Below, in pieces: positions 1,960 to 38,397 of a stretch of DNA of 38,595 nt. The position numbers and the translations under genes were made by a program. The stretch's first letter is position 1. Every line of letters begins with the position of its first letter. The notes under the pieces were generated by a model that saw nothing but the letters and a program-made list of their open reading frames with translations, did not search any database and was not told the origin of the DNA. Source of the stretch: Chromatiaceae bacterium (GTDB taxonomy: Bacteria; Pseudomonadota; Gammaproteobacteria; Chromatiales; Chromatiaceae); NCBI GenBank assembly GCA_027078745.1, contig JALWWO010000005.1:35696-74290 (forward strand). Reading direction: 5' to 3'.

Positions 1960-2119
1960 GTTGAAGATCTCCTTTAGGTTGACAGGATAAGCCAGAAGTT
2001 GATGTCATCGGCCGCGAGGCAATGCCAGGTCCGAGGGACTCCGCCGCAACTATACAACAGGTAGCGGAAGGGAGTATAGAGACCGCTTGCGCTTTCTGCT
2101 GCTGAATGGCGTGCACTCC

Positions 2120-3297: not shown

Positions 3298-3345
3298 GGA
3301 GAGTTCGGTGAAGCGCTGAGTTGCCTGCCTGAGTCTCCGGCGCCG

Positions 3346-4470
3346 ATGAAAAACGTGATCGCCGTGTTCGGCACCCGCCCAGAAGCGATCAAGATGATTC
3401 CCGTGGTCAGGGCGATCCGTAGACTCGAGGGGATCCGATGTCAAGTCTGCGTGACTGCCCAACATCGGGAAATGCTCGATCAAATCTTAGAGCTGTTTGA
3501 GATCGTTCCAGAGGAAGATCTGGATATCATGGAGATAGGGCAGGATCTCACCAGCATCACAGTCAAAGCGCTGCAGGGATTGCAGCGAGTCTTCCGGCGG
3601 GAAAACCCAGATCGGATCCTGGTTCACGGGGATACCACGACCACCTTTGCCGCTGCTCTGGCCGCCTATTACCAGCGGATTCCGGTGGCTCATGTGGAAG
3701 CAGGATTGCGAACGGGCAATCCCTATGCCCCTTGGCCGGAGGAAATCAACCGCCGATTGACCGCCGGCATCGCAGATCTGCACTTTGCCCCCACCGAACA
3801 AGCCCGGGAAAATCTGCTGCGGGAAAATATCCCCCCGTCGAACATTTTTGTCACCGGCAACACGGTCATCGACGCTCTGCTGTCCGTCGTGCAGCGGATT
3901 CACGAGGATGCTGCACTGCAACAACAGTTGCAACAGCGGTTTTCCTTTTTAGATCCGAAAAAAAAGCTGATCTTGGTTACCGCCCATCGCAGGGAAAATT
4001 TTGGCGAAGGCTTCGAAAACATCGGAAAAGCCCTCGCTCATCTCAGCCAGCGGGAAGGGGTGCAGATCGTCTATCCGGTTCATCTCAATCCTCGGGTGCG
4101 GGAGCCCATCTTTCGCTGGGTTGGGGATCGACCCAGCGTGCATCTCATCGGTCCCTTGGATTACCTTCCGTTCATCTACCTGATGCAGCGCGCCCATCTC
4201 ATCCTGACGGATTCCGGGGGCATTCAGGAAGAAGCCCCCGGGTTGGGGAAGCCCATTCTCGTCCTGCGGGAAACCACGGAGCGACCGGAAGCGCTGGCAG
4301 CGGGCACTGTGCGGTTGGTGGGCACGGATCCAGAAAGGATTGTTCAGGAAACGATGCGATTGCTGGAAGATGAGGCGGCCTATATGGCGATGCGTTTCGC
4401 TCAGAACCCCTATGGAGATGGTAAGGCAAGTCAGCGCATCGCTGCGATCTTAACGCACGCTTTGGGCTAG
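3346..4470 (+). CDS. wecB: UDP-N-acetylglucosamine 2-epimerase (non-hydrolysing)
   Basis: This cytoplasmic enzyme interconverts UDP-GlcNAc and UDP-ManNAc, supplying ManNAc-type sugars for surface polysaccharides. The 374-residue length matches the family (about 376 in E. coli). Recognisable motifs are '[10 protein letters not shown]' at the N-terminus, '[16 protein letters not shown]' and '[18 protein letters not shown]' in the first Rossmann domain, '[10 protein letters not shown]' mid-protein, and '[12 protein letters not shown]' in the C-terminal nucleotide-binding domain. Its usual partner WecC is not in the window, so the gene is isolated from a polysaccharide cluster. Its stop codon overlaps the stop of the convergent small gene in a shared CTAG at 4467-4470. 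Confidence 0.96.
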
Positions 4471-4670
4471 TCGGTCGCACAGCGTCCCGCGTACACCGCC
4501 ATGATCTGCTGCAGTTCGCCCAGCACCCAAAGGCGATCCGCTGAGCTTAGGCATTGGACTTCTCGCAGAATTTCTCCCTGCTGCAAGCGTTCGATTGCTC
4601 GCCAAACCTGACGACAGCCCTTCGCGCAGAGGGATTCCAAGGCCTGTTCTCGGGAAGGGATGGATGACAT
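4467..4670 (-). CDS. Conserved-looking small protein, 67 aa, unknown function
   Basis: The small helical protein has the pattern '[23 protein letters not shown]', '[20 protein letters not shown]'. From memory, short proteins with an 'L..GC..V...I..LE.G' start and a final 'VL.EL..IMAVY' occur in related gammaproteobacteria, so I think it is real rather than a shadow frame. The start is uncertain: ATG at 4670 (chosen) or 4682, with GGAG lying very close to the first. It runs opposite to wecB and shares a CTAG double stop with it. Its start is only about 10 bp from the divergent phosphopantetheinyl transferase start. Function is unknown. Confidence 0.55.
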
Positions 4671-4680
4671 ACTCCAAAGC

Positions 4681-5397
4681 ATGGGAACGATCGAAATTCT
4701 AGAACAAGCAGATCCCAAGGCAACCGCACTTCCCCAGCTCTCTTGGTCTCGGGAGCATCGCGTACCCCCCTTAGCTTCGGAGACCTTGCACCTCTGGAAG
4801 ATCGATTGCTCTGCTTCAGAACCCGTTGGTTTTTCCCTGCTCTCCCCAGAAGAGCGCCGGCGGGCGGAGCGATTGCCCAGCCGCCAGCAGATCCGCTGGA
4901 TTCATGCCCATGTAGGATTGCGTCGCATCCTCTCCCGCTATCTCGGTCAACCCCCGCGCGCGATCCGCTTTCTCCGAAGTCCTTCGGGAAAACCCTTCCT
5001 AGCGGAAGCTGCGCTATCCTTCAATCTGACCACCGCCGCCAGGCTCGCCTTGGTAGTGCTGCATCCCAGCCAGCCTATTGGAATTGACTGCGAACGGCTG
5101 CGCCCCCTGCCCCGCCACGCTGCGATCGCCCGCCGGTTTCTCGGTGTGGAAGTAGCGCAGAAAATCCAGCAGGCACCACCGGAAGCGCGCGCGCAGCTCT
5201 TTTTCCTCGCTTGGACTGCCTTAGAAGCTCGGGTCAAAGCAGACGGGCGAGGTCTGTTCCACCGCCAGGAATCCCCGATGCCATCCTTTCCCGTGCAACA
5301 CTGCATCCCCGAATCGGGCTATCTTGCAGCGATTGCTGGTTCGTCCCTGCCCCCGTTGGTGAAGTGGCAGACTTTTTCCCTAGATCTGCAATGCTGA
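4681..5397 (+). CDS. 4'-phosphopantetheinyl transferase, Sfp/HetI type
   Basis: Such enzymes move the phosphopantetheine arm of CoA onto a serine of acyl or peptidyl carrier proteins. The family's three landmarks are present but slightly altered: a substrate-binding stretch 'RSPSGKPFL', 'LSFNLTTAARLAL' (usually FNxSHS/T), the metal-binding 'GIDCERL' (usually GVDIE), and 'FFLAWTALEARVKADGRGL' (usual W.xKEAxxKAxGxGL). The length of about 238 residues is normal for the Sfp class. The ATG at 4681 is chosen; an in-frame ATG at 4660 is equally open and would overlap the divergent small gene. Downstream uppP begins 15 bp after the stop. No polyketide or peptide synthetase is nearby, so the carrier-protein partner is unknown. 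Confidence 0.82.
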   Translation: MGTIEILEQADPKATALPQLSWSREHRVPPLASETLHLWKIDCSASEPVGFSLLSPEERRRAERLPSRQQIRWIHAHVGLRRILSRYLGQPPRAIRFLRSPSGKPFLAEAALSFNLTTAARLALVVLHPSQPIGIDCERLRPLPRHAAIARRFLGVEVAQKIQQAPPEARAQLFFLAWTALEARVKADGRGLFHRQESPMPSFPVQHCIPESGYLAAIAGSSLPPLVKWQTFSLDLQC

Positions 5398-5412
5398 ATT
5401 TTGGAGAATGCT

Positions 5413-6222
5413 TTGGATAGCCTACCGATTCTTTCCCTCGCCCTGATCCAGGGGCTGACGGAATTTCTACCCATTTCCAGCTCCGCCCATCTGCTCCTCG
5501 CACCGCTGATCTACGGTGCCGAATTGCAGAACCTCGCCTTCGATGTAGCCTTGCATCTGGGCACCTTGGCCGCAGTCTTGATCTATTTCCGCCAAGAGAT
5601 CGGCGCCATGCTCGACGCCCTCTGGCAGTCAGCGAAGGCGCGGCGGCTCGTTTCCCCGCAGGCTCAGTTGGGCGCCATGCTCTTCTTGGCGACCCTGCCC
5701 CTGTTGGTCCTCGGCCTGCCCCTCAAGCAGGTCCTCGACGTGCTCCGCGCCCAGCCCCAGTTGCTGCCTCTGGTGATCGCTGCGACCACCATCAGTTTCG
5801 GGGGGTTGCTCTGGGTCGCAGATGTGAAGGGTTCCAGACATCGAGATGAATACAGTCTAAGCCCCTGGGATGCCCTGATCATCGGTTGTTCACAAGCGGT
5901 CGCTATCATCCCGGGCACTTCTCGTTCCGGTATCACCATCACTGCCGGGCTATTTTTAGGACTGAGCCGCCGGGCTGCCTCCCGGTTTTCCTTTCTCCTC
6001 TCTATCCCGACTATCCTCATGGCAGGTGGCCTGGAGAGCCTAGCACTCGTCCGATCCCCACAGCCCGTGGACTGGGCTGCTTTGGGCTTGGGGGCTTCCG
6101 CTGCCTTCGCAGTCGCCTATGGCTGCATCCATTTTTTCCTTCGCTTGATCGAACGCGTGGGCATGTTGCCCTTTGTCCTCTATCGCCTTCTGTTGGGGGC
6201 TGTGCTCCTGCTGCTGTTCTGA
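5413..6222 (+). CDS. uppP: Undecaprenyl-diphosphatase
   Basis: This integral membrane enzyme dephosphorylates undecaprenyl diphosphate to recycle the lipid carrier for peptidoglycan and other polymers, and confers some bacitracin tolerance. Diagnostic motifs are 'QGLTEFLPISSSAH' near the N-terminus (the Q/ExxxE catalytic region) and 'IIPGTSRSGITITAG' (the PGxSRS motif), with about eight hydrophobic segments. The length of 269 aa is typical. TTG at 5413 is chosen because GGAG at 5403-5406 sits 6 nt before it; a TTG at 5401 in the same frame has no binding site. The stop TGA overlaps the rimI start (TGATG at 6220-6224), which indicates translational coupling. Confidence 0.95.
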   Translation: MDSLPILSLALIQGLTEFLPISSSAHLLLAPLIYGAELQNLAFDVALHLGTLAAVLIYFRQEIGAMLDALWQSAKARRLVSPQAQLGAMLFLATLPLLVLGLPLKQVLDVLRAQPQLLPLVIAATTISFGGLLWVADVKGSRHRDEYSLSPWDALIIGCSQAVAIIPGTSRSGITITAGLFLGLSRRAASRFSFLLSIPTILMAGGLESLALVRSPQPVDWAALGLGASAAFAVAYGCIHFFLRLIERVGMLPFVLYRLLLGAVLLLLF

Positions 6223-6707
6223 TGGCGCCCTCTGTCCAGCTTCGACCCATGCGGAAGGGGGATCTGCCCGCCGTGATGGCCATCGAACGCATGGCCTATT
6301 CCCATCCTTGGACAGCATCTATCCTAGAAGACTGCCTGCGCATGCAGAACTATGCCTGTTGGGTGGGACTGATAGACGGGAAGATCGCAGGCTATGGCAT
6401 CTTATCCATCGCCGCCGGGGAATGCCATCTCCTCAATCTCTGCGTGCATCCCGATCAGCAGGGCAATGGACTGGGGCGCATCCTGTTGCGCCACCTGTTA
6501 GCCCTCGCCCGCCGTCGGGGTGCGGACACAGCCTTTCTGGAAGTCCGAAGTTCTAATCGGATCGCTCGGAAGCTCTATGCCTCTGAAGGGTTCTGCGAGA
6601 TCGGCCGGCGGCGGGGCTATTACCCTCATCCCCAGGGCCGAGAAGACGCCATCCTCATGGCGCGTGCCTTGCTGCCCGTCCTAGAATTCGAGGAAATCCC
6701 CTCCTAG
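6222..6707 (+). CDS. rimI: Ribosomal-protein S18 alanine N-acetyltransferase
   Basis: This GNAT-family acetyltransferase acetylates the N-terminal alanine of ribosomal protein S18. The acetyl-CoA binding loop is visible as 'QQGNGLGRILL', followed by 'FLEVRSSNRIARKLYASEGF', and the family signature 'RRRGYYPHPQGREDAILM' closes the domain. Length is 161 aa, slightly longer than the E. coli enzyme because of a C-terminal tail. The ATG at 6222 shares one base with the uppP stop. Its 3' end overlaps the convergent lolA gene by 27 bp. RimI more often neighbours tsaB, which is not in this window. Confidence 0.93.
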   Translation: MAPSVQLRPMRKGDLPAVMAIERMAYSHPWTASILEDCLRMQNYACWVGLIDGKIAGYGILSIAAGECHLLNLCVHPDQQGNGLGRILLRHLLALARRRGADTAFLEVRSSNRIARKLYASEGFCEIGRRRGYYPHPQGREDAILMARALLPVLEFEEIPS

Positions 6708-7337
6708 AGGCAGCTCCATCTGGAACAGATCCTCGGAGAGGGGCGGATTCCGCCGCAGATGCTGGAAGCTGAAGCGGGAGAGCTGGCCGAAATGATCTTC
6801 CATGAGCAAGGTATCCAGTTGCCCCCGAAGAAAACCCACCCGGATGCGCCGGATTTGTCCTTCCTGCCGAGGTTGTAGCTCCACCCAATCCCGCTGATCC
6901 CCCGCATCCCAGGGCAGGATGCGGAACAGCCGCTCCAAGGGGGCGTTGCTGATGAGCAGTTGGGCCGGTGTGCCCTGAAGGGCGGTTTTCTGATCCTGAT
7001 GGGCGATCTGATCTAATTCGGGATCCTGCAACCAGACCCGTTCCCCGTCAGCGATGATGAGCTGTGCATGGGGTTCATGGTATTCCCAACGGAACCGTCC
7101 GGGGCGTTTCAGATAGAGGGTGCCTCGGGATTCGATCATCCGTCCGCCGTCCGCGCTCAAGCTGATCTGGAGGAAATCTGCCTGCAAGCTGTGCAGATTC
7201 TGGAGAAAGTGCCGCAGCGCCCGTTCTCCGGTAGCAGATAGGGCGGGAAGGGCAGCGCAGAGCAGTGAGAAAAAAGCGAAGCCCGCCAGGGTGGGTTTTC
7301 GTAAAAATGCGCTAAGCTTCTCTTTTATCGGCTTCAT
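6681..7337 (-). CDS. lolA: Outer-membrane lipoprotein carrier protein
   Basis: LolA is the periplasmic chaperone that receives lipoproteins from LolCDE and passes them to LolB at the outer membrane. The 218-residue protein starts with a long signal peptide ending about 'PALSA' (residue 35). The mature part has the LolA pattern 'LRHFLQNLHSLQADFLQ', 'SRGTLYLKRPGRFRWEY' and 'QLIIADGERVWLQDPELDQ'. It is transcribed convergently with rimI, overlapping 27 bp at the 3' end. Its start is only 29 bp from the divergent SPFH gene, so its promoter must overlap that gene. The usual ftsK neighbour is absent. Confidence 0.94.
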   Translation of the reverse strand: MKPIKEKLSAFLRKPTLAGFAFFSLLCAALPALSATGERALRHFLQNLHSLQADFLQISLSADGGRMIESRGTLYLKRPGRFRWEYHEPHAQLIIADGERVWLQDPELDQIAHQDQKTALQGTPAQLLISNAPLERLFRILPWDAGDQRDWVELQPRQEGQIRRIRVGFLRGQLDTLLMEDHFGQLSRFSFQHLRRNPPLSEDLFQMELPLGGDFLEF

Positions 7338-17954: not shown

Positions 17955-18215
17955 GATGATTATTCCAGCGGAAATCTTCTCGAGCCCCCCGCACAGCACC
18001 CTATCTCGCCGACGGCCACTCATCGTCCTCGGTCTCTATCGGCTCAACATGCGCGGGCGCAGGTGCGCGCCCTGACCCAGCAGAAGCTGCAAGCCGTCGC
18101 CGCCCCGTTACAGCAGCTCGAAACCCTGCATCGGGAATTGAGCCTGCTGTGCAACCTGTGCGGCAACAGCGCAGGGGGCTGTCCAATCTTCAAAAATCTG
18201 GAGCGCGATCCCTAG
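17955..18215 (+). pseudogene. C-terminal remnant of a MerR-family regulator
   Basis: An open plus-strand frame ends at TAG 18213-18215. From about 18045 it reads 'AQHARAQVRALTQQKLQAV', 'LQQLETLHRELSLLCNLC' and 'GGCPIFKNLERDP'. This is the pattern of the dimerisation helix and C-terminal metal-binding loop of MerR regulators (ARxxVRAL...ELxxLxxxCxxxxxxCPI...L), with three cysteines. The N-terminal winged-helix domain is missing: the frame is closed by a TAG at 17952 and no HTH can be read in any frame upstream. The preceding part of the gap (17794-17954) has no gene that I can support; fragments such as 'SRFYTEDG' could be decayed MerR sequence but are too weak to claim. The remnant's stop and the stop of the 1826-aa gene share CTAG. 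Confidence 0.55.
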
Positions 18216-21200
18216 GGCTTTTCCAGGATCTGAACCCGAGTTTCCGCCGTCCAGGCCCGCCATTGGGGACGATACATATCGGACAGGGTCGCCGCCGGAT
18301 GCAGGAAATCGCCCGGAGAGACCGCCCGCAAGCGATAGGCAAGCTGGAAGAAAGGCCGTTGTCGCGCGGACCTTTCCAAAGCCGCTAGGAAGCGATCGCT
18401 GCGGAATTCCTGATGATCGGGACTGCTCTCCAGGTCATCGGAAAGCCAGGGCAGTTGCTTCAGTTCTCCGCTGCGGAGCAGATGGGGATTCTCGATCTCA
18501 AAACCCGCTGGCAGGGGATCATCTAGGATCAGGTAGGCCGCCCGCTGGCGGTCCGCTCGCACGCTGAGGACAGCGATCAACCGCTGGCCTTGCTGCACCT
18601 GATCCAGTGAGACCCGTCGGCCCTGTAGGTCATAGTATGCCCGTTCAACCCGATAGCCCTGCCCTCCGGCGGGCGGTGCGATCTTGGGGATGCCGGAGAT
18701 CGTGACCAGCAGGTCGATGGGGCGCTGCCCTAGGTTTTGAATGCGCAGGGGTTCTTTCAGCTCGCTGCTTTCCAATCGTAGCATCAGGGGCCCTTCCCGC
18801 CGCTGACCGTTGAGGGCGAGCGCCGGTTTTTCTCCAGACTGCATCAGAGCATGGGCGGCCAGCAGCAACCAGGCGTTTTCCTGGGTGTTGGTCTCCCCCT
18901 GCATTTCTGCAAACCATCGGTCGAGCGCTGCGCCCAATGCTCGCAGATCGAGGGTCCCGACGGCGGTTTCCGCCGCCAGGGTGAGCAAGGCCGCCCCATC
19001 CCGCAGGCGGGAACCGTAATCTCCCCGCCAATCTTCCCCAGCCTCCCAGCGCTGCAGGGATGCCAAAGCCGTTTGAAAAGCCTGCGCTGCCCGCCGGTTC
19101 TCCCCGTACAGGGCGAGGGCGGCACCGAGCTGGGCTTGCGCCAAGGGGGTGGGAAAGTCCTGAAGCCTGGCAGAGCCGTAATAGCGAAGATCCCCGAGCA
19201 CCGCTCGGCCGTTGCGGGCCAACACATAGAGCCCATAGGCAAATCCCTCGCCATCCTCCTCTAAGTTCGTATAGCTCAACTGATTGCTTAGAGAATCCAG
19301 TGCCCGAGAAAAGGCTGGTTCTGGCACTGCATAGCCTGCCTCCTTGGCGCGGCTGAGGAAGTCCGTCACATAGGCGCTGAGCCAAAAGCTTTCCCCGCTG
19401 TTTCCCCAGAGACGGAACCCCCCTCTTGCATCCTGTTTGTTCAAGAGGTCGGCGATGGCTTGGCGGATGCGAGGTGCAGCCCGGGAATCCACCGGCAGCC
19501 CAGCGGACAACGCCACTTCATTGAGATAGAGCAGGGGCAGAGCGCGGCTCGTGATCTGTTCGGTGCAGCCGTAGGGATAGCGATCCAGGGCTTGCAGCAA
19601 TCCGGCCACATCCAATCGGCCTGCACCGGTGGCAGAGAGCAGCACTCGTCCAGTGCCCGGCACCATCTCGCGGAGCGGGGCAGGATCCCATACCCAGGGC
19701 TTGCCCTGGGGTTCCAACGGGATGCGGCGGGTATAGCGGATCTCAGGGCGGTTCATGCGCACGGGTACTAGGACGGTTTTGGTGAGCCGCTGCCCATCCG
19801 GTGTGGTCAGGCGGAACACGAGCGAATGATCACCGGTCTGGTTCGCTTGCAGGGGAATCCGCAGGCGCATTTGTTCTTTGGGGTGCAGCATCCTTTCCCA
19901 ATGGCGGAAGGTCGGCGCTATTGCGATGCCCGCATCCTGGGCATCCAGCGAGAGGGTTACGGTTCCCGCCGGTCCCTGCACATGGCGGAGTTCCACCAAC
20001 ATTTGCGTGCGATCCCCAGGGGCGAGGAAAGGCGGCAAAGATACCTGCATTACGATGGGATCGTGAGCGATCACATCCTGGACCCCGTGGCCCACACCCT
20101 GGGCAGACCAAGCCATGGCCATGAGGCGGATGGTGCCGTTGAAGTCCGGCAGCGCCCAGCGGATTTTTACTTCTCCTTGGGCGTCCACCCGGTGGATGCC
20201 CGAGTAGAAGGCCAAGTGCTTTTCCGTAGGTGGGATCCCTTTCACGCGCATCCCCGCGCCGCCACCGGAACGGACGATGCCGAGGGCGCCTTGCATGGGA
20301 TTGATGAGTTGCCCATAGAAGTCTCGGATCTCCATGCCTAATCGGCGCTGGCCGAAATACCAGCCATCCGGATCCGGTGCTCGATAGTTTGTGAGATTGA
20401 GAATGCCCAGATCCACTGCGGCCAAGACCACATAGGCTTCTTCTCCCGGGGATAAGGGTTCCACCTTCAGGCCGATTTCCAGAGGACCCCGGGGCTTTAC
20501 CTCTGGAGGGACAGTGAAGCGCACGGACAATTTCCGTTCCTCCGGATCCACTGTCGCCCATTGCAACCCGATGGCCCGAGCAGGCATTTGCTTCGCCCCC
20601 TGGTTCATGGGGCGGTAGAGGTTCACCAAGACATAGGCGCCCGGTCCCCAATCTTCGGTGACCGGCAGATCCACCACGCCTTCTTCTGAAGAGATTTCTA
20701 TGGTCTTCATGGCGATCAGGCGATCGTCCACGACCATGACCAAGGCGATCCCCGGGAAGCGGGATTCAATATGCACTCGCGCGGTCTCCCCGATGCGATA
20801 CTTGGGACGATCCAAGGAGACACGCAGAAAATCCGGCGTATCGAGCTTCCCAGGTACGGAGTACCAGCCTGCATGGAATCGCAAGCTGGCGGGCACTGCG
20901 GCGCCAGATTCCTCCATGACCTGGAGTTCATAGCGACCCCAATCTACTGGCACTTCTAAGGGAATCGGTTGATCTCCCTGCACTTCCAGACGACCGCTCG
21001 CCACCTGTCGACGAGTGGTAACCGGCTCATAATTCCAATCGCCCTCTCGGTGGTACCATTGGAAACGCGTGTGGAGTTTTGACAGGGTCCAGCGCAATCT
21101 TCTGGGCGCTTGCGTGGCCGATGCCTCCCCCGCCACATAGCGGATGAAAAAGGCAGCATTTCCCCCTTCCTCCACGGAATCCTCGAACTGGGGCCGGATC

Positions 21201-23692
21201 CCGATGCGGGATTTCCCCTCCTGCACGGGCAAGGTCTTTCGACGTTCCACCGGACGACCCCCGGCTTCCAACAAGCGCACGATCAGTGTTCCCGAAAAAG
21301 GTTTGCTGACCGGCGGCAGGGCTGGCAGGCGGATCGGCAATTGCGCCAATCCCGCTGCATCAGTGGTTGCCTCCGGCAGGGGGAGATGAATGGGTTTCAC
21401 CTCTTCTTCTGTCAGTCCAAATCGATAGCCGGGATAATCGGGTAATTGATCCACGGGTTCTAGCCGTAGATCCCCCTCGACAGTCAGATCCGCTGCAGGC
21501 GCACCGAAGAGGAAGCGGGCGCGCAGGGAAAGTTTCGTGGATTTCTCGGGACGGAGCACGGCTTGTTCCGGTTGTAGCTGGAAATCCAAGCGCTCCGGCT
21601 GAAAATCCGCTACCAGAAACCGGCGCTCTGCCAGGGGGGGATCCTCAGGATCCGTGTAGATCGCTGCTTTCCAGCTGCCGTGCATCGCCTCGGATGAGAG
21701 GGGGAGGTGGAAAGAGTAGCCGCCCAGCCCCTCCTCCTGAAGCAGATGTCGACTGTGCTCGACCCCGTTCGGCCGCCGAACGATCAGGATTAGGGGGAGA
21801 TCCGGTTGTGCATAGGCCCGCTGATCGCGGGCGAGAACAGTGAAATAGACGGTCTCCCCGGGCTGATAGATGTCTCGCTCCGTGGTAAAGAAGAGATCGA
21901 TGGGTTTGGGGGCAGGACGACCGTTTGCACCTCGGTCGCTGAGATCAAAGGGAGCTTTTTTAAGACTCAGAAAAGCATAGTCTCCGGTCGTCGATTCGAA
22001 GGCCTCCAAAAGCAGGGGGCGATTGCCGCCGGTGCCCCGCAATAGTCCCGGATCGAAGCGCCCATAGCCCGAAGCATCCGTAGTTGTCTCGCCCAGAATC
22101 CGATGGTTCCGAGCGATCAGGCGCAGTTGGATTGCCGGTTTCGGCTGTGCATCGGACAGGGAGCGAACCAGCACATGGAGTCCATCGTTCCCTTGATAGC
22201 TGGCCAGTCCCAGATCCGAGACGATGAACCACTGGGGGCGAGTGGAATCTTCTTCATCCTCCCCGGGGAGCCGCGCGGTCAGGAGGTACAGGCCGGGTTC
22301 TGGAGTTTGGATCAGCTCACTGATGGGCACCGCAGTGGTGACCGCCTGATTCAGCGCGGTCTTGGTCTCGACCTCGCCAGACCAAAGCAATTCTCCGGAC
22401 TGATTTTTCAATTGCCTCAAGGCATGGGCGTTCAGCTTGTGGAGAAAATCGCCTTCCCGAATGGGCGCTACCAGGGCACGGCGGTCGATCCGATACAGCT
22501 GGAGCTGAACGCGCGATGCATTCACGGAAGTCAGAGGAATGCGGGCTGATTCTCCTTTGGGCACCACATAACCTTGGCCAGGGAAATACACTGAAGGAGA
22601 ACGATCCCTCACATAAATCTTGAGATCCGCACCTTTCCTGAGAATTTCCCCATTGGCGGCAGGCAGTCCTGGTCGGATGCGAATCCCATATCGCTCTCCG
22701 TGCCGCACCCCCTCCACGCAGATTTGTTCTGCTTCCACCGTGATTGCCAGACCTCGGCTCGGATCCACTCGCACATAGTCCGCCAGATCTTCCCGTTCCT
22801 TCGGCAGAGGATGGGAGAACGCGATGCAGATCCTCGGTTCCCGAGCATCTGCATCCACTCGATCTCCGAGGATGCGGAAACCATGTCTTCTCATCCATTG
22901 GGCATAGGTCTTGCGCAGCGCAACATCCTCTCCCAGGGCGAGGGCTGCCCGGTAGGCGCGAATCGCGGGCAGCCATTGGGATCGGTCGGCGAGGGATTGA
23001 CCGAGTTGAACTAGAGCGTCCTGACGCTGTTCCTTCGTTCCGGCTACCAGATATCCGTTAATCGCTGCAGCGGTGGCGAGTTGGGCATGTCGGGGGATCT
23101 CTCTGCGCACTCGCCAAGGTTGGTCTCGGATCGCTCGATAGCTTCGGGATAGGGATAGCCACAACTCGGCATCCTCAGGATTCAGGCGGAGCGCCTGCCG
23201 GTAATCTGTGATCGCCCGTTTCAGCTGACGGGTCTCCGCGGTGGCAGCGCGGCGGCGCAAGACCATCGGAGGTAACTTTGGCAGGGCTTGGGCAGCGATC
23301 TGCTCGCGGAGCTGTGCGGCGGATTGCCGGTGTTGCTGGGAAAGGAAATCGAGTGCTGCCAGACGTTGGGCTCGCTGTTGTTCGCTGGAGGCCGGTTCCA
23401 CCACATGGCCGGAGACGGCGCCAGAAAAGCGGCGGGGTGCTTCATAATCGCTCTTTAGAAAGCACCATCTCGCCTTGCGGTTATAGGTAAAGGCCTGACA
23501 AGCTGGTTCTTCCCGACAAGCGGATTGGCAGCGATCTAGATCCACGTTTTTCAGGATGCTGAGGTCGTGGCCGAAATAATCCACTCCTTCAAACAGTAGG
23601 AAACGCTGTGCCCTGCCGGCCTGTGTGGAGCTAATTCCGAAGAGAAGAATCCCGAGAAGAAAGGGGAAGTGCAGGAATCGCTGCAGTTTCAT
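18212..23692 (-). CDS. Bacterial alpha-2-macroglobulin-like protein with PAN domain and thioester
   Basis: This very large (1826 aa) exported protease-trap-like protein has a signal peptide ending about STQA (residue 25), then a PAN/apple-like domain at about 28-98 ('LFEGVDYFGHDLSILKNV', 'CQSACREEPACQAFTYN', 'WCFLKS'). A TPR-like stretch (about 150-265) is followed by macroglobulin-type beta domains. A bait/MG region contains 'TERDIYQPGETVYFTVLARD'. The thioester site 'YPYGCTEQITSRALPL' has Cys1376 and Gln1379, and an alpha/alpha thioester domain and C-terminal beta domain follow. Bacterial members trap attacking proteases in the periplasm by covalent thioester coupling. Many are encoded beside penicillin-binding protein 1C (pbpC); here no such gene is present. 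There is no lipobox, so it is probably soluble or outer-membrane associated. Subclass (MagD/YfaS versus YfhM) is uncertain. Confidence 0.93.
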   Translation of the reverse strand: MKLQRFLHFPFLLGILLFGISSTQAGRAQRFLLFEGVDYFGHDLSILKNVDLDRCQSACREEPACQAFTYNRKARWCFLKSDYEAPRRFSGAVSGHVVEPASSEQQRAQRLAALDFLSQQHRQSAAQLREQIAAQALPKLPPMVLRRRAATAETRQLKRAITDYRQALRLNPEDAELWLSLSRSYRAIRDQPWRVRREIPRHAQLATAAAINGYLVAGTKEQRQDALVQLGQSLADRSQWLPAIRAYRAALALGEDVALRKTYAQWMRRHGFRILGDRVDADAREPRICIAFSHPLPKEREDLADYVRVDPSRGLAITVEAEQICVEGVRHGERYGIRIRPGLPAANGEILRKGADLKIYVRDRSPSVYFPGQGYVVPKGESARIPLTSVNASRVQLQLYRIDRRALVAPIREGDFLHKLNAHALRQLKNQSGELLWSGEVETKTALNQAVTTAVPISELIQTPEPGLYLLTARLPGEDEEDSTRPQWFIVSDLGLASYQGNDGLHVLVRSLSDAQPKPAIQLRLIARNHRILGETTTDASGYGRFDPGLLRGTGGNRPLLLEAFESTTGDYAFLSLKKAPFDLSDRGANGRPAPKPIDLFFTTERDIYQPGETVYFTVLARDQRAYAQPDLPLILIVRRPNGVEHSRHLLQEEGLGGYSFHLPLSSEAMHGSWKAAIYTDPEDPPLAERRFLVADFQPERLDFQLQPEQAVLRPEKSTKLSLRARFLFGAPAADLTVEGDLRLEPVDQLPDYPGYRFGLTEEEVKPIHLPLPEATTDAAGLAQLPIRLPALPPVSKPFSGTLIVRLLEAGGRPVERRKTLPVQEGKSRIGIRPQFEDSVEEGGNAAFFIRYVAGEASATQAPRRLRWTLSKLHTRFQWYHREGDWNYEPVTTRRQVASGRLEVQGDQPIPLEVPVDWGRYELQVMEESGAAVPASLRFHAGWYSVPGKLDTPDFLRVSLDRPKYRIGETARVHIESRFPGIALVMVVDDRLIAMKTIEISSEEGVVDLPVTEDWGPGAYVLVNLYRPMNQGAKQMPARAIGLQWATVDPEERKLSVRFTVPPEVKPRGPLEIGLKVEPLSPGEEAYVVLAAVDLGILNLTNYRAPDPDGWYFGQRRLGMEIRDFYGQLINPMQGALGIVRSGGGAGMRVKGIPPTEKHLAFYSGIHRVDAQGEVKIRWALPDFNGTIRLMAMAWSAQGVGHGVQDVIAHDPIVMQVSLPPFLAPGDRTQMLVELRHVQGPAGTVTLSLDAQDAGIAIAPTFRHWERMLHPKEQMRLRIPLQANQTGDHSLVFRLTTPDGQRLTKTVLVPVRMNRPEIRYTRRIPLEPQGKPWVWDPAPLREMVPGTGRVLLSATGAGRLDVAGLLQALDRYPYGCTEQITSRALPLLYLNEVALSAGLPVDSRAAPRIRQAIADLLNKQDARGGFRLWGNSGESFWLSAYVTDFLSRAKEAGYAVPEPAFSRALDSLSNQLSYTNLEEDGEGFAYGLYVLARNGRAVLGDLRYYGSARLQDFPTPLAQAQLGAALALYGENRRAAQAFQTALASLQRWEAGEDWRGDYGSRLRDGAALLTLAAETAVGTLDLRALGAALDRWFAEMQGETNTQENAWLLLAAHALMQSGEKPALALNGQRREGPLMLRLESSELKEPLRIQNLGQRPIDLLVTISGIPKIAPPAGGQGYRVERAYYDLQGRRVSLDQVQQGQRLIAVLSVRADRQRAAYLILDDPLPAGFEIENPHLLRSGELKQLPWLSDDLESSPDHQEFRSDRFLAALERSARQRPFFQLAYRLRAVSPGDFLHPAATLSDMYRPQWRAWTAETRVQILEKP

Positions 23693-23811: not shown

Positions 23812-23895
23812 GAAAACCTAAATCCAGAGCGAACCGCTCATCGATGACAACGAGAAATGTCTTGCTCCCAGAAACTCATCCTTAGGTGTGTACCC

Positions 23896-24792
23896 ATGAA
23901 ACTGACCTCTCTTTTTTCCGCGGCCGCCTTGGCCATCACCTCCTTCTCTGCAAATGCTTGGTATGGGCCTTATCAGGTCCAGCAAGAAACCCTGATGCAG
24001 CAGTATCAGCAGATGTTGCGCGTTCAACAGGAATGGGCAAAACGGATCGCCGCTCAGCAGGTCGCGTATCTACAGCAGCTGCAGCAGCGAGGATACATTC
24101 CCTTCGGCTTCCCACCTGTAGATTTCCCGGCAGTGCCAGACCTCGGCCAGATGCCCGACTTCCCTGCACCGCCTAAGATGCCGGATTTCGGTCAGATACC
24201 CGACTTCCCAACACCGCCCAAGATGCCGGACTTCGGCCAGATGCCCGACTTCCCTGCGCCGCCTAAGATGCCGGATTTCGGTCAGATACCCGACTTCCCA
24301 ACACCGCCCAAGATGCCGGACTTCGGCCAGATACCCGACTTCCCTGCGCCGCCTAAGATGCCGGATTTCGGTCAGATACCTGACTTCCCAACACCGCCCA
24401 AGATGCCGGACTTCGGCCAGATACCCGACTTCCCTACCATGCCCGCGCCGCCCAGCTACGGATCAGGCTACTCCGAGTTCGACAGAATGGAAGACCTGGG
24501 CAAGCTCTTCCGGATGCGCTATGAACAGCGGCGGGCAGAGGCCAGAAAGCGAATCCTGGCACACCGCGCCCGGATGATGGAGCTTCTGCGGCAACACTAT
24601 GGGCCTAACTTCCCGGCACCTTTCTTCCATCCTCAAATGCCCGAAAAAACCGTGGCCCCCGCCGCTCAAGAAGCGGAACAGGAAAAGGCGGTAGAAGCAG
24701 CGAAGGCAACCCAGCCGGAGTCGACTCCAGAAAAGGGAGGCGAGCCGGAAAAGCCTGAAACGGCTCCTGAACAAGCGCCTGCAACGGACTAA
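23896..24792 (+). CDS. Exported proline-rich protein with 15-residue tandem repeats
   Basis: The 298-residue protein begins with a clear signal peptide (MKLTSLFSAAALAITSFSANA). Part two is a Gln-rich helical segment (about 22-70, 'QQETLMQQYQQMLRVQQEW'), and part three is the repeat PDFGQ(I/M)PDFP(A/T)PPKM, about six copies (residues 80-180). Part four is a basic helical segment ('FRMRYEQRRAEARKRILAHR'), and the tail is a low-complexity Ala/Glu/Pro/Lys stretch. I recognise no known family or enzyme motif. The ATG at 23896 is chosen because it starts the signal peptide; an ATG 39 bp upstream is in frame but lacks support. It has its own promoter and a strong terminator, so it is monocistronic and probably well expressed. 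It could be an envelope, adhesive or matrix protein, but that is a guess. Confidence 0.85.
   Translation: MKLTSLFSAAALAITSFSANAWYGPYQVQQETLMQQYQQMLRVQQEWAKRIAAQQVAYLQQLQQRGYIPFGFPPVDFPAVPDLGQMPDFPAPPKMPDFGQIPDFPTPPKMPDFGQMPDFPAPPKMPDFGQIPDFPTPPKMPDFGQIPDFPAPPKMPDFGQIPDFPTPPKMPDFGQIPDFPTMPAPPSYGSGYSEFDRMEDLGKLFRMRYEQRRAEARKRILAHRARMMELLRQHYGPNFPAPFFHPQMPEKTVAPAAQEAEQEKAVEAAKATQPESTPEKGGEPEKPETAPEQAPATD
24151..24420 (+). repeat. Three 90-bp tandem repeats inside the proline-rich gene
   Basis: Copies at 24151-24240, 24241-24330 and 24331-24420 differ from each other at only one to three bases; a fourth, partial copy begins at 24421. Each 90-bp unit is itself two diverged 45-bp halves (one with CCTGCxCCGCC, the other with CCAACACCGCC). 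The array therefore arose by a 45-bp duplication followed by later duplication of the pair. Confidence 0.95.
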
Positions 24793-32078: not shown

Positions 32079-32773
32079 AGGAAGGAAAATTGCCGGTGGT
32101 GGTGCTCATCTCCGGCAGCGGCAGCAATCTGCAAGCACTCATTGACGGGGCGCAGTCCGGAGAACTGCCCATCGTGCTGCGGGCAGTCATCAGCAATATG
32201 CCGAACGCCTATGGTCTTCAGCGGGCGCGGGCAGCTGGGATTCCGGCGGAAATTCTCGACCATCGCGCTTATTCGGATCGGGTGCATTACGATCAAGCGC
32301 TTTGGGAATGCGTGCAGGCCTATGCACCTGAATTGGTGGTGCTCGCCGGTTTCATGCGGATTCTGACCCCCGCATTCGTGGCGCGCTACCGTGGGCGCTT
32401 GCTCAACATCCATCCTTCCCTGCTGCCGAAGTATCGCGGCCTCCACACCCACGAACGGGCTTTGGCGGCGGGAGAGCGGACGCATGGAGCGAGCGTGCAT
32501 TTTGTCACAGAAGAATTAGATGGGGGACCGGTAATCCTTCAAGCCGAAGTGCCGGTGCATCCAGATGAGGATCCCCGGCGTCTCGCCGCTCGGGTGTTAG
32601 TGGAGGAACACAAGATCTATCCCTTAGTGGTCTGTTGGTTTGCCCAAGGTCGTTTGTCTCTGGGGGCGGACGGGCTGCCTCGATTGGATCGAAAAATCCT
32701 TCACCAGCCCTTGCGCTATCACGAACTCAGCCCTGATCTTCTCTGCGGAGGTGCCCATAAAGCCTTGCCTTGA
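32075..32773 (+). CDS. purN: Phosphoribosylglycinamide formyltransferase
   Basis: PurN transfers a formyl group from 10-formyl-tetrahydrofolate to GAR in purine synthesis. Motifs of the family are present: '[17 protein letters not shown]' at the N-terminus, '[14 protein letters not shown]' and '[19 protein letters not shown]', with the catalytic Asn-His region, plus '[19 protein letters not shown]' with the catalytic Asp. The 232-residue length is about 20 more than E. coli; the extra part is a C-terminal tail that overlaps the convergent parA gene by 47 bp. It is translationally coupled to purM. Confidence 0.96.
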
Positions 32774-33506
32774 CCTCCTGCCAAAGGTTGCCATAGGCCT
32801 TGGAAGCCGGGTTATCTGGATTCTTCAGCACTACAGGCATCCGGTAGATGCCCATGCGTTCCACTTCTGCCGAATAGGGAATGCTCGTCCGGAGAAAGTC
32901 CGGATACTGCTTCGGCAGTTCCGCCATGAGATCCGTGTGCAGACGCTTGCGCCGATCCACCATGGAGAAAAAGGGCATGCACTGCAAGTTCGGATTGAAG
33001 GCATGACTGGCCAGAAACTCCTGGAGCTGATCCAAGGTGCGGGCCGATAGGGTGGTGGGAATCATGGGTACCAGCAGGGCATCGGCTATCCGAAAGATAT
33101 TTTCGGAAACCAGGGAGATGCTCGGCGGGCAGTCCAGGAAGATGCAGTCATATTCTTGGGACAGGGGTTTCAGAAGGCGGCTGAGCTGCTTGGTGGGTTT
33201 CTTGTTCTCTTCTAACACCAGGTCCAGATTTCGATAAGAGAAATCCGCGGGCAGAAGATCCAAGGACTCGAAATCTGTTCCCTTGATCAGAGGATCCAGG
33301 GAACGCTTCTTTTTCTTTTTCAATAGTCCCTGTCCCCCGCCCTTGACCTTGGGCTGGATCCGAAAGTAATAGGTCGCTGCACCCTGGGGGTCTAGATCCC
33401 AAATGAGTGTCTGCTTGCCTTCATTGGCGGCGAGGGAGGCGAGATTGACTGCAGTAGCAGTCTTTCCCACGCCTCCCTTGAGGTTGTAGCAGCCGATCAC
33501 TTTCAT
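32727..33506 (-). CDS. ParA-family partition-type ATPase (orphan)
   Basis: The 259-residue ATPase has the deviant Walker A box 'NLKGGVGKTATAVN' (signature Lys10, Lys15), the A' motif 'IWDLDPQGAAT' and Walker B 'CIFLDCPPSIS'. ParA ATPases dimerise on ATP, bind DNA nonspecifically and move cargo; examples are plasmids, carboxysomes (McdA) and chemoreceptor arrays. It has no ParB partner here; a CHAD-domain gene lies upstream, overlapping by 4 bp (ATGA at 33503-33506). An unusual basic insert follows the A' motif (KVKGGGQGLLKKKKKR, residues 53-68). Its N-terminus has no helix-turn-helix, so it is of the small-ParA type. The chromosomal partition ParA normally sits with parB and gidB, so this is a different, accessory ParA. 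Confidence 0.92.
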   Translation of the reverse strand: MKVIGCYNLKGGVGKTATAVNLASLAANEGKQTLIWDLDPQGAATYYFRIQPKVKGGGQGLLKKKKKRSLDPLIKGTDFESLDLLPADFSYRNLDLVLEENKKPTKQLSRLLKPLSQEYDCIFLDCPPSISLVSENIFRIADALLVPMIPTTLSARTLDQLQEFLASHAFNPNLQCMPFFSMVDRRKRLHTDLMAELPKQYPDFLRTSIPYSAEVERMGIYRMPVVLKNPDNPASKAYGNLWQEVKARLYGHLRREDQG

Positions 33507-35080
33507 CCATGCCCGCCCTTTTTCTTGGTTCGAAATAGGGATCGGAACAGACGTTGGTGGCTCGGGCTGTCGAAGGTTGCGAAGGTACCGGCGAATTCTT
33601 GCCGCGCTGCGGCCTGACGGCTGAGCAAGCCACCCACGAGCACGCCCATGGCCAACAGGCTGTCCGGATCGGCGCGGCCCTCCTCGCTCATGGTATGGGC
33701 AGTTCGCCGGAGGCTATCCGCCTGCACAGCCAGATCCTGAAAGCGTCCGAGATTGTCGAGCAAGGTCTTCAGGATTTTAATCAGTTTACGCATCTCCTTT
33801 TTCGGGTAGAGGCTGGCGAAAAACTCCAAGAGATAGCGGAGTTTCTTGCAGCTCTTGCGCAGTTCGTGCAGATCTTCCGGCGGCGAAGTCTCATCGATAG
33901 CGCGACCTTCCCGCAACACCCGCTTGTACATGCGCCAGATCCGCGCATCCGCAACCCATTTCGTGGGCCGCAGGGCGTTGGGCGCGGTGGGGTGTTCGGG
34001 CGCGGGGGCTTCCAAAAAAGCCCGCCAATTGTTCAACAAATCCTGCATCTCTTGAGAGGCCAGCTGCTCAGCAAGTGCCTTTTGGGCTTCGTCATAATGG
34101 GAGAGGAGGAAAGCCCGCAAGGGTTCTAAATGCGGTTGCAGGAATTCGGGTAAACTCCGCTGATAACTCGGAAAATCCAAGAGATACACATCCAGATCCC
34201 GAACAGGACCGGTGATCTGACCCACCCAAGCGAAACGGTCTTTGTATTCCTGCACGATTTCCGGCGCGAAGACCCCTTTGATTTGAGAAAGGGCGGACCG
34301 AGTGCGCCGCACGGCAACCCGCAGGTCGTGCAAAAACTCGGGGTCCAAGTTCTCCCGCACCCCCGGAATGTTCGCTTCTATGACATTGAGAAGGTGGAGC
34401 AAGATTTCCTTCGTCGTTTCATCCGCACGTCGGTCGGGGTCCAATCGGAAGTTCAGCTTGGAGGAATAATCCCCCGGTGTGCGGCCCGCTGCGCTTAGGG
34501 CCTCGAGCAACAGGGGTGTCCGAGCAGGGATTAACTCGAGTTCATTCTCTAAGATCCGCAACACTCCTCGATAGGCATCGGGATAACCTCGAATGGGCCG
34601 CACCCGGATGCGGGCACCCAGCACATGTCGGTTTCGGGGATTTTCCTCAAAACGGTTTTCTTCAATCTCCATGCGAACGACCGTCTTTTCATCCTCATTG
34701 AGCACGCGCAGGGTTTGTACCCGACTGGAAATCTGAACGATCGGAAGCAAACGGCGAATGCTAGAGATCGGAGCAATTCGTGCTCGCACGGGTCCAAGGT
34801 CGAGCTGATCTGCGAAACTCACTTCCCCTGTCAGCCGTTGTTTGAGTTGCGGTTGCTTGCTTTGAAACGGTTCCCAAAACAGCTGCCGTGTGTTGCTATC
34901 AACCTGTTCCCAAAGGCAACCCCCCGCATGGAAAATGCGCCAATCGAAGGTATCGTAGAATCTCCTGATCACCGAGCGGGCAGGGTCCGCAGCGATCTGC
35001 CGATGAGCCTGTAGCATCCTTTTGACTTCTTCTACCCCGGTTCTCTCCGGAACAAGATAATCGCGCACAGGTGCATTCAT
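33503..35080 (-). CDS. CHAD-domain protein with uncharacterised N-terminal domain
   Basis: The 525-residue cytoplasmic protein has a C-terminal CHAD domain (about 220-510). The conserved His/Arg/Lys helix motifs are visible: 'EFLHDLRVAVRRTRSALSQI' and 'DLHELRKSCKKLRYLLEFFA', which together line a basic pocket. CHAD domains bind inorganic polyphosphate and can localise to polyphosphate granules (known for the family). The N-terminal 200 residues resemble a CYTH-like triphosphate tunnel region by position and content (alternating E/R strands, 'TVVRMEIEENRFEE'), but this is weak. It is the first gene of an operon with the ParA ATPase (ATGA overlap). The start is ATG 35080; the binding site is poor. 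Confidence 0.88.
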   Translation of the reverse strand: MNAPVRDYLVPERTGVEEVKRMLQAHRQIAADPARSVIRRFYDTFDWRIFHAGGCLWEQVDSNTRQLFWEPFQSKQPQLKQRLTGEVSFADQLDLGPVRARIAPISSIRRLLPIVQISSRVQTLRVLNEDEKTVVRMEIEENRFEENPRNRHVLGARIRVRPIRGYPDAYRGVLRILENELELIPARTPLLLEALSAAGRTPGDYSSKLNFRLDPDRRADETTKEILLHLLNVIEANIPGVRENLDPEFLHDLRVAVRRTRSALSQIKGVFAPEIVQEYKDRFAWVGQITGPVRDLDVYLLDFPSYQRSLPEFLQPHLEPLRAFLLSHYDEAQKALAEQLASQEMQDLLNNWRAFLEAPAPEHPTAPNALRPTKWVADARIWRMYKRVLREGRAIDETSPPEDLHELRKSCKKLRYLLEFFASLYPKKEMRKLIKILKTLLDNLGRFQDLAVQADSLRRTAHTMSEEGRADPDSLLAMGVLVGGLLSRQAAARQEFAGTFATFDSPSHQRLFRSLFRTKKKGGHG

Positions 35081-36868: not shown

Positions 36869-38035
36869 TTAGGGCGATGTCATCTGAACGGATAGGGTTC
36901 CCGCAACGCTGAAGGTATCCATGAAACCAACATGGTTCGATGCTCTGATGGTCAGATCCCCGAATACAGTTGTATTGGAAAAGGTGCCATCGTCCAGATC
37001 ACAGATAACGATTTCAGATGCCGCAATATCGGGGCCAGAATAGTTAACATTTGAGCCATCGCAAACCCCCATCCCCATAGAAGGGCCTGAGATGTTCCAG
37101 CCAATATCCTGCATCAGACGGAAAGTAATCAGATCATGGGCTTCAGCAGTTGCATAGGCCTCCATCACTTCATCCGGGGTGATGGATAAATCCCAATGAG
37201 AGACGGAAGAACCTAGCTCTAGGGCACTAGGTGCATACATTTTGATATGGCCCCCAGAGATCCCATCGGTCAATAAACTTGCATTGCCTAAGGCATTAGT
37301 GCCGGTCCAGTGTAGATCTCCCGTATCCGTTGCAGAAGCCTGGCGTCCTGCATCGGTCATATCTGGCCAATTCATCCCTTGCGAATGATCTTCCAGATGG
37401 ACCATAAAGGCATCATCATAATTATAGAATTTACTACCGTTACTCGTATCGACTAAGGTCATAAACCCTAGACCATGTGCGATCTCATGCAATAATACGG
37501 GGTAGAAATCTACCATTCCTGTTGGCGCGGATGAATCAATCCCATACCACCAGGACATCCCTCCCAGGCAAGTGGGATCGGAATCTAATGCACTATTGAA
37601 CTGAGCGCTGATATCAGCATAAGCAGGCTCTAGATCTGTTCCTGCAAGGCTATTGGCTAAAGCTTGCACATACCAAGTATTGTTCAGAGGCGCATTAGAA
37701 AAGTCCCTATGAACGGTGGTAGGTCCTGCTTGTCCAAGTGTAGCTCCCGTAGAAGAGCAATATAGATCATCGAAGGTCATGCTGATCCGTATTTCTACAT
37801 CGCTCTTCAAAACAGCCCCCCAGGCATCAGCCGCGGCTTGCGCTGCGTTTAACCTTTGTTCCCCTAATGTGGTTCCTGGATTGCCATCCACTGGCGTTAC
37901 CGGCGTTGGATCATTGAATCCCTCATTGGGCCCGTCGTTGTTGATAATTGTGATGGTGGCTGCGAAAGCAGTGGTAGTTAGTAGGGGAAAGATCACCAGA
38001 GATCCTTGCAAACCTCTCTTCCAAAATGCAGGCAT
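36869..38035 (-). CDS. Secreted zinc metalloprotease-like protein
   Basis: The 388-residue protein has a signal peptide ending near 'TTAFA' and a central 'VLLHEIAHGLGFM' (about residues 180-192). This is an HExxH zinc-binding motif with the following Gly, but no third His at the usual metzincin spacing. Farther on, 'GSSVSHWDLSITPDEVMEAY' and 'LMQDIGWN' recur in secreted bacterial proteases of this kind and could supply a further ligand. The C-terminal part (about 310-388) looks like a small beta domain. Starts at 38041 (TTG), 38038 and 38035 (ATG) are tandem; 38035 is chosen because AGGAGG (38043-38048) lies 7 nt before it. The preceding gene's stop is adjacent, so the two are probably coupled. 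Activity is inferred, not shown. Confidence 0.85.
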   Translation of the reverse strand: MPAFWKRGLQGSLVIFPLLTTTAFAATITIINNDGPNEGFNDPTPVTPVDGNPGTTLGEQRLNAAQAAADAWGAVLKSDVEIRISMTFDDLYCSSTGATLGQAGPTTVHRDFSNAPLNNTWYVQALANSLAGTDLEPAYADISAQFNSALDSDPTCLGGMSWWYGIDSSAPTGMVDFYPVLLHEIAHGLGFMTLVDTSNGSKFYNYDDAFMVHLEDHSQGMNWPDMTDAGRQASATDTGDLHWTGTNALGNASLLTDGISGGHIKMYAPSALELGSSVSHWDLSITPDEVMEAYATAEAHDLITFRLMQDIGWNISGPSMGMGVCDGSNVNYSGPDIAASEIVICDLDDGTFSNTTVFGDLTIRASNHVGFMDTFSVAGTLSVQMTSP

Positions 38036-38037
38036 CA

Positions 38038-38397
38038 TCAATCCTCCTGACTGGGCGTATGGCTGATTCTGACTTTGCCTTCCTTGTCAACCGTAGCAAA
38101 GATCGCGCTCTGAAAACGACCTTGCAGATTCACCGAGACAGAACCGTCTGGATGGTATTCTTCCACTAAGCCCCGAGAACTCGTGCTCATGGCATTGCGC
38201 TCTCTGGCGGATAGGGGGATAGGTTCGCTCCTTTCTAGTTCCGGCCCTGGAATGAGTTGGCCTGTCATCGGATCGATATAGATTCGATGGCCAGCCTGGC
38301 CCTTAGGGAATGCAGCATTGTCCAGCGAGTCTGCATGGGAAATTGCAATTGATCCAATTACCGTAGAGGCTAGCAGGAGAGAAACGCTCAATTTCAT
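38038..38397 (-). CDS. Small exported protein upstream of the protease
   Basis: The 119-residue protein has a signal peptide (MKLSVSLLLASTVIGSIAIS, cleaved near 'HADS') and a mature part with 'HRIYIDPMTGQLIPGPELE', 'MSTSSRGLVEEYHPDGSVSV' and 'NLQGRFQSAIFATVDKEG'. The 'DPxTGxL...LSTSxxGLVEExxPDGSxxVxLxGRFQS' pattern is familiar from small secreted proteins next to similar proteases, which suggests a functional pair such as an inhibitor or chaperone/propeptide. That is inference. Its stop lies within a few bases of the next start. It is the first gene of the minus cluster, with its own promoter upstream. Confidence 0.78.
   Translation of the reverse strand: MKLSVSLLLASTVIGSIAISHADSLDNAAFPKGQAGHRIYIDPMTGQLIPGPELERSEPIPLSARERNAMSTSSRGLVEEYHPDGSVSVNLQGRFQSAIFATVDKEGKVRISHTPSQED

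Follow-up and report, generated by a model that had tools for sequence, protein, structure and literature searches.

The window analysed here, a 38,595-nt stretch of DNA from a Chromatiaceae bacterium, encodes on its minus strand a CHAD-domain protein and, directly after it, a ParA ATPase. Judged from sequence, the two proteins are strong candidates for a machinery that uses ATP to place polyphosphate (polyP) granules and to share them out. The ParA–CHAD pairing is old and widespread, the residues with which the CHAD protein of Chlorobium tepidum (CtCHAD) contacts polyP are kept, and the N-terminal domain of the CHAD protein carries a small patch whose conservation depends on ParA. The features concerned are listed below; coordinates are positions in the window, and residue numbers refer to the window's CHAD protein or ParA.

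32727–33506, minus strand: ParA ATPase, 259 amino acids, Soj-like (Pfam, invariant motifs and fold match)
32946–32957, minus strand: DRRK, ParA residues 184–187, basic segment and candidate DNA contact; D184 invariant
33297–33362, minus strand: lysine-rich loop, ParA residues 49–70, partly flexible in the model (pLDDT < 50 at 56–67)
33459–33479, minus strand: deviant Walker A motif, ParA K10–T16 (KGGVGKT), with the signature lysine
33503–33506, minus strand: ATGA stop/start overlap of 4 bp coupling CHAD to ParA
33503–35080, minus strand: CHAD protein, 525 amino acids, with a pseudo-TTM N-domain followed by a CHAD domain; polyP cargo adaptor in the proposed reading
33521–34468, minus strand: CHAD domain, residues 205–520, with contacts H251, R254, R258, R294, R415 and Y416 (structure match and conservation)
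34469–35080, minus strand: residues 1–204, CYTH/TTM fold lacking ExExK; proposed ParA-docking domain (AlphaFold2 model and structure match)
34583–34594, minus strand: residues 163–166, IRGY (V/I/L-R/K-G-Y in the family), second part of the patch
34685–34687, minus strand: codon of K132, first part of the patch

The CHAD protein gene precedes the ParA gene; its product matches PF05235 (E 1.9e-63, residues 226–458), and its nearest named relative, at 58% identity, is likewise from a Chromatiaceae bacterium. The ParA matches Pfam AAA_31 with E 1.1e-33. The original prediction, made from the bare sequence, described a ParA with intact Walker motifs, no ParB and a 4-bp ATGA overlap with a CHAD-domain gene, and all three points hold. 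The overlap is read directly in the window; K10, G14, K15 and T16, together with D39 and the Walker B residue D125, are invariant in 40 ParA sequences including the window's; and in the window's genome, 2.18 Mb in size and 97% complete, the ParB_N domain (PF02195) has no match, while the control search is positive in 10 of 14 genomes. The ParB partner expected of a ParABS system is not found in this genome. As an observation in its own right, the genome (G000) has neither a ParB_N match nor a second, Soj-like ParA, and it seems to be devoid of a chromosomal ParABS system. It also encodes a second CHAD protein, which stands alone.

Conservation of the ParA–CHAD pairing

Among the genomes of 55 relatives, the ParA clade occurs in 18 places in 16 genomes (E <= 1.7e-80, the next best match being 1.1e-27), and 17 of the 18 lie directly after a relative of the CHAD gene, G009:C456 being counted among them from its coordinates only and G002:C82 (L135) being the one that does not. 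At E <= 1e-35, the ParA is present in 57 of 369 genomes of the class sample and in 68 of 398 of the phylum sample. The wider clade, taken as the 116 distinct ParAs of the retrieved loci rather than all matches, some with a flank of only 1.5 kb, contains 58 with a CHAD gene directly upstream on the same strand, one with PPK1 and 57 with neither; L196, with its broken ParA frame, is left out. The 116 separate from 14 generic ParAs at 100% support on a quick tree, as are all trees here. On the ParA tree, the CHAD-neighbour label changes 9 times against 42.4 when shuffled, and none of 500 shuffles is as low. Furthermore, a CHAD match exists in 57 of the 68 ParA-bearing genomes versus 145 of the 330 others (odds ratio 6.6, p 7e-10, uncorrected for ancestry).

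The named set was drawn with a profile of the paired CHADs and holds its 80 best named hits; it is thus biased toward pairs and toward the window's kin. Here the ParA adjoins the CHAD in 59 of 80 loci by the script rule, or 60 counting L289, and the exact 4-bp overlap recurs in 39 named loci. Among the named carriers are Sedimenticola, Thiodiazotropha, Thiohalocapsa, Thiorhodococcus, Methyloprofundus and Nitrotoga, two examples being the strains Sedimenticola selenatireducens DSM 17993 and Thiorhodococcus minor DSM 11518. The pair is thus carried by both methane-oxidising and purple sulfur bacteria. Both G009 and G322 hold the pair twice, as though it were duplicated as a unit. The search for conserved adjacency that the original prediction had proposed, under which a pairing unique to this genome would have spoken against it, hence finds the pairing across many genomes, and chance or purely local adjacency is ruled out by the tree label test, the co-occurrence and the named-set pairing. 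In this sense, the presumed adaptor is genetically tied to its ATPase.

For the clade ParAs that have no CHAD alongside, many of them in the outer clade, the neighbours are mixed by eye, and no common alternative partner is found among them. By eye, a Pit-type phosphate transporter and a PhoU-like gene are close to one such ParA (L217) and a Pit fragment to another (L216), and in L123, L131 and L134 an outer-clade ParA is directly downstream of an NtrC-like regulator gene.

Structure of the two proteins and the ParA-dependent patch

The CHAD domain superposes on the CtCHAD–polyP complex 6qva with Z 35.4 and a root-mean-square deviation (rmsd) of 1.8 over 309 aligned residues, and on 6qv7 with Z 36.5. 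The polyP contacts of CtCHAD given in the available text of PMC6537752 (H253, R256, R260, R296, R418 and Y419) align to H251, R254, R258, R294, R415 and Y416 of the window's protein. These six residues are invariant in an alignment of 58 rows, and all 80 rows of the named set retain them, so that both the fold and the contact residues of a polyP-binding CHAD protein are present, and the domain is predicted to bind polyP, as the original prediction supposed. A basic C-terminal tail as the ParA-activating segment is not favoured, because 61 adjacent CHADs and 19 unlinked ones have similar numbers of tail Lys and Arg (p 0.44), even though tails of at least 4 residues with at least 2 Lys/Arg occur in 33 of 61 versus 4 of 19 (p 0.017).

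The AlphaFold2 model of the CHAD protein, built from 58 sequences, has a pLDDT of 94.5. Residues 1–204 match triphosphate-tunnel enzymes, namely 6yp4 (VIA Z 16.0, rmsd 3.3, 180 aligned) and AtTTM3 5a67 (Z 15.7, 177 residues), and also Mediator Med18/20 (Z ~10), tunnel proteins described as non-catalytic in the accessible part of PMC4641920. The tunnel fold is thereby present, whereas the ExExK metal/substrate motif is absent: in the stretch searched, 75 of 80 rows contain no loose match, and the loose matches of the other five are judged by eye to lie outside strand 1, L282 among them being cut off ahead of that strand. The Pfam CYTH domain finds no match in any of 20 family members. A median of 5 residues precedes strand 1 (<= 12 in 48 of 61 paired rows; the N-terminal lengths of the remaining 13 depend on first in-frame starts), and an N-terminal ParB-like peptide is absent. 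Four ParA-less genomes (G018, G031, G033 and G279) contain CHADs of 47–57% identity that have no N-domain.

The loss of ParA in some lineages provides a natural experiment. Nineteen CHADs of the named set have no adjoining ParA, a twentieth ending at a contig edge. In whole-genome searches, 10 of the 19 (the Methylobacter group) have a clade ParA elsewhere (E <= 8.9e-93), and 9 have none, their best match being generic (E 1.8e-24); 'ParA-less' here means without a clade ParA, generic ParAs remaining. Since 10 of 19 do have a clade ParA, the unlinked CHADs were dropped as a single class. K132, G165 and Y166 are all kept in the 10 genomes whose clade ParA is unlinked, and also in the unlinked CHAD L017 of the ParA-bearing genome G011.

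The column comparison, which includes unnamed loci besides the named set, sets 98 CHADs from ParA-bearing genomes against 14 from ParA-less ones, using only loci with full flanks and removing near-identical rows, such as L092 (ParA-less, with K132), a copy of L266; the ParA-less G114 and G206 are outside it. Only 3 of 37 columns that are at least 95% conserved with ParA drop to 60% or less without it, all of them in the tunnel domain. K132 is present in 98/98 versus 3/14, Y166 in 96/98 versus 2/14 and G165 in 98/98 versus 8/14, while the six polyP residues are kept in 14/14 of the ParA-less CHADs, and likewise D43, D46, W47 and R109. The Fisher values ignore shared ancestry except where relatives are merged at 55% identity, and in that comparison K132 stands at 45/45 versus 1/9 (p 8.6e-9). 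After merging, the most discriminating of 509 columns are 132, 166, 164, 163 and 165, with K132 and Y166 as the top two. Judged by starred branches, CHADs switch between the ParA-bearing and the ParA-less label at least 5 times; the quick tree gives 8 switches.

Among the rows left out of the comparison, every N-domain row from ParA-bearing genomes has K132 and a Tyr or Phe at 166. The exceptions are ParA-less: L266 and its copy L092 keep both K132 and Y166, L297 keeps Y166 with R132, and L242 and L261 keep K132. Three divergent paired copies, L066 (G322:C101), L045 (G011:C256) and L048 (G005:C99), keep K132 and Y/F166 although their polyP contacts are altered; they perhaps serve a second cargo.

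In the model, K132 sits in the turn between strands 112–127 and 133–147, and residues 163–166 follow strand 156–162; from the strand direction, therefore, both should share the same end of the barrel. K132 and residues 163–166 at one tunnel mouth would form a candidate ParA-docking patch, more probably a protein interface than a ligand site. The columns show that ParA and CHAD have co-evolved. The original prediction had left the N-terminal 200 residues unexplained and suggested that they could carry the ParA-activating segment; they are now assigned by fold to a degenerate TTM/CYTH tunnel with a candidate docking patch. Their ParA-dependent conservation agrees with that suggestion, but they are not a ParB-like disordered peptide.

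The ParA model (pLDDT 86) is closest to Soj/ParA, with Z 29.3 (rmsd 2.5 over 237 residues for 8ray, and 2.2 over 233 for 9a6n), followed by MinD, McdA and BcsQ with Z 24–26. Both the Walker-ATPase motifs and the ParA fold are therefore present, and the fold is nearest to the nucleoid-binding Soj type. This type of ParA is basic, with a mean net charge of +8.3 versus -3.8 in the 14 generic ParAs. The mean net charge of the loop 49–70 is +5.7 in 58 CHAD-paired ParAs, +3.2 in 57 clade ParAs without CHAD and -1.7 in the 14 generic ones, and the region around DRRK likewise exceeds its generic counterparts in basic character. The residues with which ParAs touch DNA are mostly basic and show little conservation, according to the portion of PMC7229837 available, and nucleoid binding is therefore plausible for this ParA.

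Proposed mechanism and competing readings

The pair probably constitutes a two-gene positioning or partition module for polyP. The CHAD domain would bind polyP chains at the granule surface and coat the granule, and the N-terminal tunnel domain would dock ParA directly through the tunnel-mouth patch. ParA-ATP dimers would sit on the nucleoid via their basic surface; contact with a CHAD-coated granule would lead to ATP hydrolysis and ParA release, and the granules would follow the ParA gradients, stay apart and be shared between daughter cells. More tentatively, and with somewhat less than an even chance, the dead tunnel domain may be repurposed as a ParA-docking and perhaps ATPase-activating module, with K132 making the contact and the lysine-rich loop of ParA touching polyP or DNA. 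Of the reading first offered for this pair, the conserved pairing, the kept polyP contacts and the Soj-type fold thus stand, and the N-terminal region is refined to a tunnel domain.

Several observations weigh against this module. The 57 of 116 clade ParAs with no CHAD alongside include a clade of 23 rows, and 11 of the 68 ParA-bearing genomes have no CHAD match. The charged disordered N-terminus that is the usual feature of ParA/MinD partners (PMC10241942) is missing from the CHAD partner, with its median of 5 residues. Five of the 58 paired ParAs (L120, L121, L127, L129 and L188) adjoin CHADs of 301–325 amino acids lacking the tunnel domain; the tunnel domain is therefore not the universal docking part, and in these lineages ParA must use the CHAD itself or another part. 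The polyP contacts are altered in the three divergent copies that keep the patch, and in part in the short CHADs L121, L127 and L129, and polyP binding is therefore not certain for every pair. As to polyP content, which is only presumed for this organism, PPK1 finds no match in the window's genome, which has only PPK2-type enzymes (one PPK2 and one polyP:AMP phosphotransferase). Across genomes, PPK1 occurs in 42 of 54 with the pair versus 7 of 9 without it; it is not enriched, and for this reason it is not specific to the pair and was dropped as an obligate companion.

The chief rival to positioning is that ParA acts as a regulatory ATPase of polyP metabolism, which binds the tunnel domain and toggles the CHAD between a polyP-bound and a free state or brings in PPK/PPX. 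BcsQ in cellulose synthesis provides the model, and the ParA fold also matches BcsQ with Z 24.3; moreover, the tunnel domain has a polyP/triphosphate fold. PPK genes lie near some pairs as well. Of the 60 paired named loci, 3 have PPK1 within 6 kb (L236, L269 and L296) and 4 have PPK2 at that distance (L281, L282, L303 and L304), and in L296 the genes for PPK1 (3415–5622), CHAD (5619–7202) and ParA are consecutive, with 4-bp overlaps at both joints. A PPK1 domain lies within about 5.5 kb of the pair in 7 of the 42 PPK1-bearing pair genomes (G117, G246, G274, G228, G351, G300 and G189). These nearby polyP genes also speak for the positioning module. Moreover, the closest folds are Soj/ParA, with Z 29, and the basic charge of this ParA suits nucleoid binding, so that the metabolic switch is unlikely, although it deserves weight.

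By neighbour clustering, some pairs have PPK1, PPK2 or a phosphate-transport-like cluster in their vicinity repeatedly, but no third gene is general. The clustering yielded many antisense frames, and the recurring genes were checked afterwards. A PBP_like_2 (phosphate-binding-protein-like) gene is near 6 of the 60 paired named loci, and also near the CHAD in 10 of 10 Methylobacter-group loci whose ParA is elsewhere. In L124 (G192; 1738–4756), a clade ParA without CHAD starts 7 bp after a PPK1 gene.

A different cargo is improbable. The CHAD would mark stores of sulfur or carbon, or a polyanion other than polyP, for ParA to position, as could be suggested by the altered contacts of the three paired copies, by the unmatched PPK1 in the window's genome and by the named carriers, which are largely Chromatiaceae, Sedimenticola relatives and methanotrophs, in a set biased to the window's kin. 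Against this, the polyP contacts are kept throughout the named set and in all 14 ParA-less CHADs, most of the pair genomes examined have PPK1, and the window's genome has its PPK2 and polyP:AMP phosphotransferase.

It is very improbable that the N-domain is an active CYTH enzyme, a class IV adenylate cyclase or triphosphatase, with which ParA is merely co-transcribed. Its fold does match such cyclases and triphosphatases, and activity is claimed for the Acidithiobacillus protein in the accessible text of PMC6416229, but ExExK is missing, and the co-loss of K132/Y166 with ParA argues against a ParA-independent enzyme. Finally, the pair can hardly serve as a ParABS replacement that segregates the chromosome through a polyP-bound nucleoid: although the window's genome has neither ParB_N nor a Soj-like ParA (its own matches drop from 1.6e-176 to 9.8e-10), 14 of 15 other pair genomes show a generic ParA among the matches listed (E ~1e-18 to 1e-27), G014 showing none among them, and such replacement therefore cannot be the general role.

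Other features of the window and comparison with known systems

Around the pair, the flanking genes look ordinary by eye (PurM/PurN and KsgA), with a phosphoribulokinase/uridine kinase family protein farther off by Pfam. At their 3' ends, parA and a convergent purN-like frame overlap by 47 bp (32727–32773), and the scan for promoters and terminators found nothing exceeding the shuffled controls. Elsewhere, the minus strand encodes a bacterial alpha-2-macroglobulin of 1826 amino acids with an N-terminal PAN domain (18212–23692) and a secreted-looking protein of 390 amino acids with a HEIAHG zinc-protease-like motif (36869–38041), which has no Pfam match at E 0.001. A protein of 311 amino acids (23857–24792) matches neither Pfam nor NCBIfam within the cut-offs applied; a tandem repeat of 45/90 bp (PDFGQIPDFPAPPKM units, 97% matches; 24134–24435) underlies its sequence.

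The ParA–CHAD adjacency is not wholly new. A folD-ppk-parA-CHAD cluster of Acidithiobacillus is printed in the accessible parts of PMC6416229 and PMC10892726, which give no positioning idea and propose cAMP signalling or copper resistance. Compared by printed gene order only, it resembles the present pair in that parA and a CYTH-CHAD gene adjoin beside ppk1. The available text of PMC6416229 reports conserved CYTH active-site residues for the Acidithiobacillus protein, whereas ExExK is absent here.

For polyP, AlgP spaces the granules of Pseudomonas aeruginosa, as described in the excerpt of PMC9239181. Even granule spacing on the nucleoid would be common to both systems, but AlgP is a histone-like DNA-binding protein. 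In the part available of a 2025 review (PMC13052382), only AlgP is named for polyP positioning, and the need for ATP is listed as unknown. ParA-driven polyP positioning is not proposed in the titles and abstract openings among the literature matches listed, a scope outside which most subscription literature falls. For the placement and sharing of bacterial polyP granules, the pair would thus offer a named ATPase and a named adaptor, and K132 and Y166 are single residues whose change should uncouple ParA from CHAD.

The CHAD partner resembles the CYTH-CHAD proteins (E. coli YgiF, the CHAD protein of C. tepidum, 'phosins') in having a tunnel followed by a CHAD domain, as in YgiF 5a60, and its polyP contacts correspond to those of CtCHAD 6qva. 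It differs in that the N-domain lacks ExExK, escapes the Pfam CYTH model and is coupled to ParA. If the proposed reading is correct, ParA systems would gain a folded pseudo-enzyme as adaptor, partners elsewhere being thought to use disordered N-termini (PMC10241942). An organelle made of an inorganic polymer would then have a ParA system, whose folded adaptor would be of neither the ParB nor the McdB type.

The nearest counterpart in arrangement is McdAB. It comprises a ParA-type ATPase and a cargo adaptor, and positions carboxysomes. In both systems, a ParA-type ATPase is encoded beside a presumed cargo binder, ParB is not found, and McdA (6non) matches the ParA model with Z 25.0. In the pair described here, however, a folded TTM-CHAD protein that lacks a charged N-terminal tail takes the adaptor's place, the ParA resembles Soj more closely than McdA, and the cargo would be a granule of an inorganic polymer.

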